The translations under genes and the position numbers were made by a program. A stretch of DNA of 64,000 nucleotides from Nitrosomonadaceae bacterium (GTDB lineage: Bacteria; Pseudomonadota; Gammaproteobacteria; Burkholderiales; Nitrosomonadaceae): NCBI GenBank assembly GCA_014190895.1, contig BJGV01000002.1:1-64000 (forward strand), read 5' to 3'. Positions 2-3,902 of the stretch are shown one piece after another. Within the stretch, counting starts at the first letter, position 1. Every line of letters starts with the position of its first letter. The notes beneath the pieces are model-generated. The model saw only the letters and a list, made by a program, of their open reading frames with translations. It was not told the DNA's origin and made no database searches.

Positions 2-124
2 TATATGAATATTTTCCGTGCCACGATAGGGCCATTGATATTCATACTACTGCTCTCTTTTGTTGGATATAAGATTATGAAGTCGAAACGAGTGCAACGT
101 TGGCGAGAAACCCGTCGCTCGTAG
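2..124 (+). CDS. C-terminal end of an unidentified membrane protein (partial, open at the left edge): ...MNIFRATIGPLIFILLLSFVGYKIMKSKRVQRWRETRRS*
   Basis: Reading frame open from the window edge to TAG at 122-124; one hydrophobic segment followed by a basic tail. Confidence 0.4.
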   Translation, partial: YMNIFRATIGPLIFILLLSFVGYKIMKSKRVQRWRETRRS

Positions 125-904: not shown

Positions 905-1315
905 ATGAAATCATTAATGGTTTTCGTGCCAAAATGGGCCATAACCAATAGCGCAATATTGGTAGCGTTGTGCGTGCATACTTTGCCAGTGTCGGCCCAT
1001 GCAATGTTACTTAAAGCGGAACCAGCGCGTCGAGGAGTGCTTACGAAGGCGCCAACACAGGTACGTTTATGGTTTAATGAGGAAATTGAGAGCGCTTATA
1101 CCTCTCTTTTTGTTCTCGACGCTAACAAGAAGCCTGTAACCGAAACCAAGCCGCATGTTGTCAAAGACGACCCAAGATCTGTTGTTCTTCCGTTGCCCGA
1201 GTTACTGCCTGGAAAATATTCAGTTAAATTTCGAGTCTTATCGGTAGATGGTCACGTTGTTGATTCATCTTTTGACTATACAGTTAAGAACAAGAGCAGC
1301 GCACAAGAGAAATGA
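905..1315 (+). CDS. copC: CopC-domain periplasmic copper-binding protein (ORF opens at 863; ATG at 905 gives a better signal peptide)
   Basis: HAMLLKAEPARRGVLTKAPTQVRLWFNEEIE...VLSVDGHVVDSSFDYTV is typical CopC/PcoC. Confidence 0.85.
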   Translation: MKSLMVFVPKWAITNSAILVALCVHTLPVSAHAMLLKAEPARRGVLTKAPTQVRLWFNEEIESAYTSLFVLDANKKPVTETKPHVVKDDPRSVVLPLPELLPGKYSVKFRVLSVDGHVVDSSFDYTVKNKSSAQEK

Positions 1316-3330
1316 TTGAGACTGTTGCAGCGCTGGCTCGTTGGTTTCAGTTAGCAGCCAACATGACTTTAGTGGGCGGTTGTATTTTTCTTGTTATTGC
1401 TGGTTGGAACAAGGCCGCGCTTCCAAATTTATGGATTACTCGTCTCGAGCGATCTCTGCCTTGGTTGGCAACGGCTCTTTTGTTGGGGCTTCTGGTGGTG
1501 CTTGCCACCACCACAGCGCAGGCCACAGGCATTGCTGAAAACGTCTGGCAACCAGGAGCCTGGTTTGGGATTCTATTAGAAACCCGTATGGGACATATAT
1601 GGGCGGCACGTGCAGCCCTGGGGCTTATAGTTTTAGGGATCGCTTTTTATGTGCGAAATTCCCCTGGGATTCAAGGGCTGCTGTTATGTGCCACGGTCGC
1701 TGCATTTACGTTAGCCGCAGGGTCGCTTGCGAGTCATTCTGCAGCTGAAGAGCTGTCTCTAATATCGATACTACCTTATACACTGCACATCATCTTAGCC
1801 AGCATTTGGTTTGGGGCTTTGCCAGCTTTTCTTTTAGTGTTATTTTTCAACAAGGGACAACAGAAAAACGCAATAGTTGACCAATCGGATGTTCAAACTT
1901 TAAAGCGCTTCTCGATTCTGGCCTTACCCGTGATGCTGGGCATAATTGCAACCGGTATTTTTGTGGCTAACCGGATGATAGATACAAGCTACAGTGCGCT
2001 GTTTGCAACTAAATACGGCTGGCTTCTGAATGCAAAAATTTTTCTGCTCATAATAGTCCTAATGATTGCTGCACGCGCTCGCTCTGTTTGGTTACCATCT
2101 CTCACCCAAGACCAGAATCTAGTGGCTGCCGGTAGTCAGAAAATGCGAAAATGGGTCTGCATAGAATTTGTGCTCGCATCAACGATTGTTTTGTTGGCGA
2201 CCATATTAGCAAATAGCGTACCAGCAAAACACGCCATTATTCAAGATTGGCCTTATCCATTCAGGTTCTCTATAGCCGCCACTTGGGACGATCCAACAGT
2301 AGTGATGCGTGTGTGGGGCGGAATCATTTTGCTTATTTTGGCAGGAGGAATAGTCGTATATAGCCAAATTAAAAAATGGACAATGAAGCACCGTGTTGGC
2401 ATCTCAGCCCTATTAGCGATTTGTGCTTTATTTTTGGCATTACCCTCTCTTGCCATCCAAGCTTACTCAGAAACTTATCGCAAGACGCCAGTTCCATTTG
2501 ATGCCATCTCCATCGCCAATGGCTCAGGTTTATTCGCCAAGAACTGTGTCACCTGTCATGGATTTCAAGGAAAAGGCAATGGTATTTTAGCAAAGAGTTT
2601 TACTAAGCCCCCCGTGGATATGCTGACAGAACCACATACAGCTAAACATACCGCAGGAGATTTTTTTAATTGGCTAACTTACGGTATTCCTGGTACCGGG
2701 ATGCCAGATTTTGCTAACAAACTTGAGGAAGAAGAGCGTTGGGACGTAATAAACTATCTTCATGCCATGTCTCGCGGTTATCAGGCGCGACTCATGAACC
2801 CTAATATTGTTCCCAATCAACCTTCTCTAGGCCCGCCCGGCTTCTCTTATTCTGCTCATGATGGCTCAAGCGGTATCTTAAAAGATTTCCGTCAGAAAAA
2901 AACAGTATTATTGGTTCTATTTTCATGGCCAGACTCGCGAGCGCGCCTTGATCAATTGAGACGATCGTATGGTGCTTTAAGTGCGGGCAATACAACGATA
3001 TTGGCAGTGCCCATGAACGATCTTGATTTACAGGACATGGCGACAATTACGGCAGATAGTCCATTTCCAATTGTGACCGAGGGTGCGCCAGAAATTACAC
3101 GCAGTTACGCTCTTTTTCGCAGGACTCTCAGTAAACCCGATCTGCTTGGGGAGGGATCGCTGCCCAAACATATGGAGTTTTTAGTGGATCGCTACGGTTA
3201 TTTGCGCGCGCGCTGGATTCCTGAAGCGGATGGCGATAACTGGATAAATATCGATACAATGGCAGAGCAGATTGCTCGACTTAGCAGGGAAAAAGAAATC
3301 TTGCCGCCACCGGGCGACCATGTACATTAG
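1312..3330 (+). CDS. CopD-domain copper transport protein fused to a cytochrome c domain and a C-terminal redoxin-like domain
   Basis: Multi-TM CopD-like N-terminus; CVTCHGFQGKGNG heme motif; C-terminal thioredoxin-fold-like segment VLLVLFSWPDSRARLDQLRR...; start overlaps the copC stop (ATGA). Confidence 0.8.
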   Translation: MIETVAALARWFQLAANMTLVGGCIFLVIAGWNKAALPNLWITRLERSLPWLATALLLGLLVVLATTTAQATGIAENVWQPGAWFGILLETRMGHIWAARAALGLIVLGIAFYVRNSPGIQGLLLCATVAAFTLAAGSLASHSAAEELSLISILPYTLHIILASIWFGALPAFLLVLFFNKGQQKNAIVDQSDVQTLKRFSILALPVMLGIIATGIFVANRMIDTSYSALFATKYGWLLNAKIFLLIIVLMIAARARSVWLPSLTQDQNLVAAGSQKMRKWVCIEFVLASTIVLLATILANSVPAKHAIIQDWPYPFRFSIAATWDDPTVVMRVWGGIILLILAGGIVVYSQIKKWTMKHRVGISALLAICALFLALPSLAIQAYSETYRKTPVPFDAISIANGSGLFAKNCVTCHGFQGKGNGILAKSFTKPPVDMLTEPHTAKHTAGDFFNWLTYGIPGTGMPDFANKLEEEERWDVINYLHAMSRGYQARLMNPNIVPNQPSLGPPGFSYSAHDGSSGILKDFRQKKTVLLVLFSWPDSRARLDQLRRSYGALSAGNTTILAVPMNDLDLQDMATITADSPFPIVTEGAPEITRSYALFRRTLSKPDLLGEGSLPKHMEFLVDRYGYLRARWIPEADGDNWINIDTMAEQIARLSREKEILPPPGDHVH

Positions 3331-3419: not shown

Positions 3420-3902
3420 ATGAATAGATTGTTAGCCATAATTTTAATTAATGTTGCGCTTGTTTTTCCGTCCCAAGTTCATGCGCATACTGATGCACAC
3501 CTAGACACTGTCAACGCTCCTCATGGGGGGCAGTTACGGATGGCGGGACCATATCATTTAGAGCTTGTTGTCAAAGATAGAGAGATTGCACTCTATGTTA
3601 TGGATCATGCGAATGGAAAAATTAATGCGGATGGTGGTGTAAGCAAAGCAATTGTTCAAACTGATAAAGTTAAGACCTCGGTTAAGTTAGAGCCTTTTGG
3701 TGAAAATGTACTCAAGGGCAATGCTGAATTTTTAGCTAGACCAGAAACAACGGTCACCGTCTTTATTACACTACCCAAACAAGAAGCTCAAACTGCTCGT
3801 TTTAAACCTTTTGCACCTAAAAATAAAGAAATTAAAATCAAAGAAGGGGCTGGGGAGGCCCCCGCCCCACAGACAGCCGATCACAACAAACACCACCATT
3901 AA
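3420..3902 (+). CDS. Periplasmic His-rich hypothetical protein, possibly metal-binding
   Basis: Signal peptide, HTDAHLDTVNAPHGGQL N-terminus, His-rich C-terminus DHNKHHH. Confidence 0.7.
   Translation: MNRLLAIILINVALVFPSQVHAHTDAHLDTVNAPHGGQLRMAGPYHLELVVKDREIALYVMDHANGKINADGGVSKAIVQTDKVKTSVKLEPFGENVLKGNAEFLARPETTVTVFITLPKQEAQTARFKPFAPKNKEIKIKEGAGEAPAPQTADHNKHHH

Follow-up and report, generated by a model that had tools for sequence, protein, structure and literature searches.

The position of copC and copD in amo and pmo operons is already known (PMC6189053, PMC3764937, PMC5960693, PMC10472526). AMO has never been purified in active form (PMC6189053), and the locus described here may bear on how AMO and pMMO receive their copper, and in which redox state.

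For YcnJ of Bacillus subtilis, transfer of Cu(II) to the CopD part is proposed, with its reduction treated as an unsettled step (PMC13344008, PMC12362106). No reductase is known to associate with YcnJ (PMC13344008). A conserved CopD histidine is needed for copper uptake both in YcnJ and in YebZ (PMC13344008).

The end of an amo operon and its three-domain copD gene

The window, meaning the whole stretch of 64,000 nucleotides that was analysed, starts with base 1 of its contig (G000:C2). It opens with the end of the ammonia monooxygenase operon, in a Nitrosomonadaceae bacterium with a small genome; this genome (G000) is 1.32 Mb long and 99.97% complete, and its relatives are Nitrosomonadaceae. 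The contig begins inside amoE (orf4), whose 3' end at positions 2-124 (+ strand) encodes the peptide MNIFRATIGPLIFILLLSFVGYKIMKSKRVQRWRETRRS, a match to the C-terminus of amoE in locus L030. It is followed by amoD (orf5, 193-783, +), which codes for a periplasmic protein of the PmoD/AmoD family with a C-terminal membrane helix. This protein is 65% identical to the L030 amoD product and 56% identical, over 154 aa, to a protein in the copper membrane monooxygenase (CuMMO) operon L101.

The next gene, copC, most likely starts at 905 and ends at 1315 (+). It encodes a periplasmic copper protein (Pfam CopC, E 9.4e-21) with the predicted mature N-terminus HAMLL. Its best relative of solved structure is CopC 5icu (E 6.4e-17), then the CopC domain of YcnJ, 9c14. 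The predicted His1 and a D-G-H motif suggest a CopC of the Cu(II) histidine-brace type.

Downstream of the copD fusion gene lies orfX (3420-3902, +), a gene for a conserved His-rich secreted protein with the mature start HTDAHLD, the motif PHGGQLRMAGPYHLEL and the end HNKHHH. No Pfam, NCBIfam or PDB match was found for it. It stands 3' of copD in most Nitrosospira-type loci, in L030 (8203-8703), in the CuMMO operon L101 (5973-6485, 37% identity) and in locus L105 (8418-8891), and is likely to be another copper protein of the operon. An MFS-like transporter gene follows on the opposite strand.

The order amoE-amoD-copC-copD is shared by the window and loci L030, L032, L038, L040, L042, L047 and L049; the whole operon of the Nitrosomonadaceae reads amoC-amoA-amoB-amoE-amoD-copC-copD, with copD as the fusion. 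Profile searches of G000 with PF02461 and PF04896 gave no matches, and the contig itself starts in amoE. In streamlined freshwater Nitrosospira, amo operons have been described as unbinned, which can happen when the repeated copies escape assembly or binning (PMC9239080). Because the contig breaks within the operon and this precedent exists, the absence of amoA and amoC from G000 is read as an assembly gap. The source organism may be a streamlined freshwater Nitrosospira of that kind. The case also illustrates that absent amo genes in near-complete assemblies can be artefacts.

A sequence-only reading of this DNA had described the fusion gene as a single ORF, translationally coupled to copC and sharing a copper role with it, that joins a CopD part, a cytochrome c and a thioredoxin-fold segment lacking redox cysteines. 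These claims hold up. Translation of the window gives an uninterrupted 672-aa ORF at 1312-3330 (+), composed of a CopD core, two extra membrane helices, a cytochrome c and a thioredoxin-like domain. The copC stop and the start of the fusion overlap in ATGA at 1312-1315, and the two stretches quoted in that reading, CVTCHGFQGKGNG and FSWPDSRARL, both occur in the ORF exactly as given. A copper role common to the fusion and copC is likewise supported.

The CopD-type core spans residues 2-302 (1315-2217, +), with eight helices in the AlphaFold2 (AF2) model. Pfam recognises CopD (PF05425) at residues 195-299 with E 2.5e-19 and 70 bits, against a curated cut-off of 32.1; in the NCBIfam copper_CopD equivalog model NF033808 the protein scores 102.8 bits, short of the 195 set for equivalogs. 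The AF2 secondary structure shows two further transmembrane helices (residues 328-380; 2293-2451, +) that lead into the periplasmic part. The cytochrome c domain follows at residues 401-486 (2512-2769, +), where Pfam Cytochrom_C matches above its cut-off (E 6e-15). Judging by the CxxCH motif (CVTCH, 412-416), the distal axial ligand Met464 and the profile match, this appears to be an intact mono-haem class I cytochrome c domain.

The last domain occupies residues 509-659 (2836-3288, +) and is free of cysteines. AhpC-TSA matches residues 509-632 of the full protein with 21.2 bits (E 2.8e-4), below the 26-bit cut-off, and the isolated domain with 24.9 bits (E 2.1e-5), just under it; the homologue in L103 exceeds the cut-off with 28.7 bits. 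A profile made from 28 homologous C-terminal domains finds Bcp1 (3drn, E 1.5e-7) in the PDB, then AhpE and ResA. The AF2 model of the domain (pLDDT 81, pTM 0.80) leads Foldseek to structures of Bcp, ResA, TlpA and GPX, with a best E of 1.5e-8 and a probability of 1.00. By its predicted fold the domain belongs to the thioredoxin superfamily, and the sequence-only reading, which a structure prediction without this fold would have refuted, is upheld on the point. Confidence is lower for the full-length model (pLDDT 76, pTM 0.54), and a Foldseek search with it brought no gain over the domain result. This model has ten long helices ahead of the haem domain and places that domain and the Lys/Arg-rich loops on opposite sides. 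Because of these loops and the haem attachment site, the haem and thioredoxin-like domains are probably periplasmic.

At the position of the CxxC or peroxidatic cysteine the domain has WPDS (residues 539-542; 2926-2937, +). A His620-Met-Glu622 motif (3169-3177, +) lies within P-x-H-M-E-F-L-V-D-R, and in the alignment with Bcp1 His620 sits at the arginine of the Bcp1 motif R-x-T-F-V-I-D (RITFVID). The protein closes with an H-x-H tail, HVH (residues 670-672; 3319-3327, +). Two other identities were ruled out: a Sco-type copper site (CxxxC plus a distal His), since the cysteines are absent, and an FTR1-type iron permease, since many plasmid matches have only the haem domain in common with the protein.

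Conservation and occurrence beside CuMMO genes

More than 30 independent Nitrosomonadaceae assemblies contain full-length homologues, so the fusion is not a chance event; the recurrence of the same ORF also rules out a fusion produced by assembly or sequencing. Located close to the periplasmic side of the CopD core, His142 and His159 are present in 44 of 44 homologues; in the alignment, their counterparts in E. coli CopD (YebZ) are H135 and H154. The haem residues C412, C415, H416 and M464 are equally constant (44/44). Within the 35 Nitrosomonadaceae sequences, whose identity to the window protein goes down to about 45%, His142, His159, C412-x2-C415-H416 and Met464 are all invariant.

No homologue has a CxxC in the thioredoxin-like domain. 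In the betaproteobacterial set of 41 sequences (the 35 from Nitrosomonadaceae and six from elsewhere), no conserved cysteine that could be the catalytic residue of AhpC/TSA or TlpA proteins was found past the haem motif. Other residues are kept instead. Nearly all Nitrosomonadaceae sequences have WPxS, and most of the other betaproteobacterial homologues have P-x-S-x-x-R. Of the 41 sequences, at least 40 retain H620 and E622, and nearly all retain R632-A-R-W635. Local decay of a redoxin is ruled out by this pattern. The sequence-only reading had called the domain degenerate, which was right as to the missing CxxC; the absence is a feature of the whole family, and the domain has conserved residues of its own.

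The protein ends in PPPxDHxH. Outside the main clade of amo-linked Nitrosomonas copies, and with two alphaproteobacterial homologues included, all 32 sequences terminate in His and 28 of them have H670. Most amo-linked Nitrosomonas copies have lost the H-x-H tail and end in ..EDFVR. Nitrosomonas genomes also contain a second fusion copy, away from amo and without copC, that keeps the tail (L034:6171-8204, L036:9757-11778, L041:4463-6481, L043:2049-4073, L044:4510-6573, L045:4660-6681 and L046:4385-6406). The tree separates the tail-less amo-linked clade from the tail-bearing unlinked copies, which suggests a duplication and a division of labour.

The link with CuMMO genes was surveyed in 399 genomes of the order, with the amoA/pmoA family PF02461 as the CuMMO marker. 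The full-length architecture occurs in 13 Nitrosomonadaceae genomes (counting G009, where it is partial at contig ends) and in 7 others. All 13 genomes with a PF02461 match have the fusion, compared with 7 of the 386 genomes that lack the marker (Fisher p 9e-20). Outside the Nitrosomonadaceae the figures are 4/4 with CuMMO and 3/382 without (Fisher p 4e-8); both p values overstate the evidence, because related genomes are not independent. Four of the seven fusion genomes without PF02461 are Nitrosomonadaceae assemblies from which amo genes were not recovered. The other three (G503, G547 and G749) lie outside the family and have the fusion with no CuMMO detected; in G547, an amoD-like gene, copC, the fusion and orfX are still clustered. 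In genus g26, two CuMMO genomes have the fusion and two non-CuMMO genomes do not. The CuMMO link of the fusion is well supported.

The same architecture recurs next to divergent CuMMOs. Locus L101 has the order amoC-amoA-amoB-amoD-copC-copD fusion-orfX, as in the window, and the fusion also adjoins CuMMO genes in L103, L104 and L107. These loci (L101, L103, L104 and L107/L129, from genomes G566, G490, G658 and G760) belong to Burkholderiales that are not AOB and are divergent amoCAB/pmoCAB-like operons that include amoD, copC and the fusion. A gene for a CRP/FNR-like regulator stands beside the operon in L101 and L103. In G802, a congener of the alphaproteobacterial methanotroph G245, pmoD, copC and the fusion form a cluster, and PF02461 was not found there.

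Outside the Nitrosomonadaceae, a search with the C-terminal domain across the phylum, in a sample with very few CuMMO genomes, yielded nothing but stand-alone peroxiredoxin- or TlpA-like proteins. Proteins of a Burkholderia type (L070, L108:3699-4886, L110:3911-5998 and L112:3499-4671) combine membrane helices with a cytochrome c, have a C-terminal domain related to the present one, and end in His. They have no CopD core and were set aside as cousins; those in L070 and L110 adjoin ABC-transporter genes.

The survey thus places the architecture in amo operons across the Nitrosomonadaceae, in divergent CuMMO operons of other Burkholderiales and, in a more divergent form, in an alphaproteobacterial pmo operon. 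The sequence-only reading had the domains, the fold and the copper role, and missed the amo operon, the conservation across CuMMOs and the fact that the literature already lists the position as copD. Its idea of a haem-driven reduction of Cu(II) during import may be right; the results speak neither for it nor against it. The architecture is no local oddity and no product of decay, and the fusion appears to be a CopD subfamily dedicated to CuMMOs.

Possible roles in copper supply

The favoured, still tentative model, with a little less than an even chance of being correct, is that the fusion is a dedicated copper-loading factor for CuMMOs, with haem redox at the handover from CopC to CopD and docking or metal relay by the thioredoxin-like domain. 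In this model, the CopC of the operon would bind Cu(II) in the periplasm and pass copper to the CopD core, whose His142 and His159 are at the periplasmic face. The tethered cytochrome c would then change the redox state of the copper during the handover, most likely from Cu(II) to Cu(I), allowing import of the copper or its insertion into the monooxygenase. A haem-bearing CopD is a natural candidate for the reduction step, for which YcnJ has no known reductase.

The thioredoxin-like domain cannot be a thiol oxidoreductase or peroxidase, because it has no thiols. In the model it most likely acts as a module for docking or for relaying metal, a role suggested by its conserved His620/Glu622 and by the H-x-H tail. 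The amount of protein is also relevant. CopD makes up about 0.02-0.03% of the proteome, compared with 3.5% for AmoB (PMC5960693), and such scarcity is more in line with an assembly factor than with a stoichiometric partner.

Several observations count against the copper-loading model or limit it. Class I cytochromes c with His/Met ligation usually have a high potential, so that reduction of tightly bound Cu(II) is not obviously favourable. The haem could reduce such copper only if Cu(I) is well stabilised, and might instead take the electron of Cu(I). The fusion in G503, G547 and G749, where no CuMMO is detected, and the loss of the tail in most amo-linked Nitrosomonas would also speak against copper loading. 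Some genomes, such as that of Nitrosomonas sp. Is79, have no copCD beside amo (PMC3764937), so an amo-linked copy is not strictly required. The wider proposal that CuMMO operons of ammonia oxidisers, methanotrophs and their relatives share a haem-driven copper loader, with a thiol-free thioredoxin-like relay ending in H-x-H, is possible but rather unlikely.

The opposite direction of electron flow gives a different protein. As a cuprous oxidase serving copper protection, the fusion would pass the electrons of Cu(I) through the haem to the respiratory chain, and copper would be kept as Cu(II) and sequestered instead of imported. A His/Met cytochrome c is well suited as an electron acceptor, and the CopC of the operon is of a type predicted to bind Cu(II). 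CopCD was originally described as a system of copper resistance and periplasmic sequestration (cited in PMC6769254). However, the CopD homologues YcnJ and YebZ aid copper uptake under limitation (PMC13344008), and resistance is handled elsewhere by plain CopD with no haem. This role seems unlikely. Alternatively, there may be no net redox change of copper at all: the fusion would be a copper-loading chaperone whose haem is a sensor or a structural element, and whose thioredoxin-like domain docks on the monooxygenase or on CopC. Low CopD abundance and conserved motifs without catalytic residues agree with this, as does the YtkA domain, which has a comparable place in YcnJ and aids oxidase metallation (PMC13344008). 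Fully conserved haem ligands beside the CopD site nevertheless exceed a structural need, and such a chaperone is decidedly improbable.

As a further alternative, the cytochrome c may exchange electrons with AMO/pMMO, or with the CuA-type PmoD proteins AmoD/AmoE, leaving the CopD part as a mere anchor. In favour of this are the strong co-occurrence with CuMMO genes and the fact that PmoD forms a CuA site by a motif common to AmoE (PMC6189053). But since CopD is about 100-fold scarcer than AmoB (PMC5960693), electron donation to AMO is less likely; the CopD histidines are moreover fully conserved, and fusion copies exist away from amo. This role is more doubtful still than that of a non-redox chaperone. 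An ordinary CopD with decayed, functionless C-terminal domains might be suspected from the missing cysteines and an AhpC-TSA match just below the Pfam cut-off. Against this, different genera share S542, R545, H620, E622, R632-W635 and the tail, and alphaproteobacterial proteins of only about 28-30% identity still have the domains in this order. Its probability is very close to nil.

If CopD does carry its own redox centre, the copper supply of AMO and pMMO and the step from Cu(II) to Cu(I) become testable through one gene. If the haem-driven loader is real, it would be at once a copper metallochaperone and a metalloreductase of a new type, and would provide the metallation factor so far missing for AMO and pMMO.

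Comparison with known systems

The closest relative is the CopD of the beta-AOB amo operon (amoCAB-amoE-amoD-copCD; PMC6189053, PMC3764937, PMC5960693), which is the same gene in the same position. The open papers cited here treat it as a plain CopD copper transporter, whereas here it carries cytochrome c and thioredoxin-like domains. No description of these domains was found in the open literature, subscription papers being outside the search; the Pfam domain combination is probably already listed in domain databases. In this respect the finding corrects the usual picture of amo and pmo operons, which takes their copD for the gene of a simple copper transporter.

The pmo CopD of alphaproteobacterial methanotrophs (G245, L127) occurs in the same order, pmoCAB-pmoD-copC-copD. 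It has 650 aa, a cytochrome c, a C-terminal domain and the end H-S-H, again an H-x-H, but it is only about 28-30% identical to the window protein and the next gene is not orfX. Pfam confirms CopD and cytochrome c in this version; the last domain goes unrecognised and was matched by alignment alone. Its C-terminal region (L127:3767-5719, L128:1777-3711) contains two cysteines (FARC.., GDC or GSC) outside a CxxC, which could form a disulfide or a metal site. Other CopD matches in the family of G245 are plain proteins of 297-338 aa or of other types.

Sco, TlpA, ResA and Bcp share the fold of the C-terminal domain, and Sco and TlpA serve copper-site assembly. The domain of the fusion differs from them in that CxxC, CxxxC and a peroxidatic Cys are all absent. 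Cytochrome c/FTR1 proteins likewise join a metal permease to a cytochrome c; they are iron permeases, with an unrelated membrane part and no thioredoxin-like domain.

CtiP of Corynebacterium glutamicum (CopD-CtaG) is another CopD fused to an assembly module for a copper enzyme. Its module is the membrane protein CtaG, and no cytochrome c or thioredoxin-like domain has been described in it. YcnJ (CopC-CopD-YtkA) has no haem; its CopC is fused, and YtkA takes the place of the cytochrome c and thioredoxin-like domain. Like the fusion, YcnJ adds extra extracytoplasmic domains to a CopD core with functional His, and it supplies copper to a membrane copper enzyme, as is proposed for the fusion.
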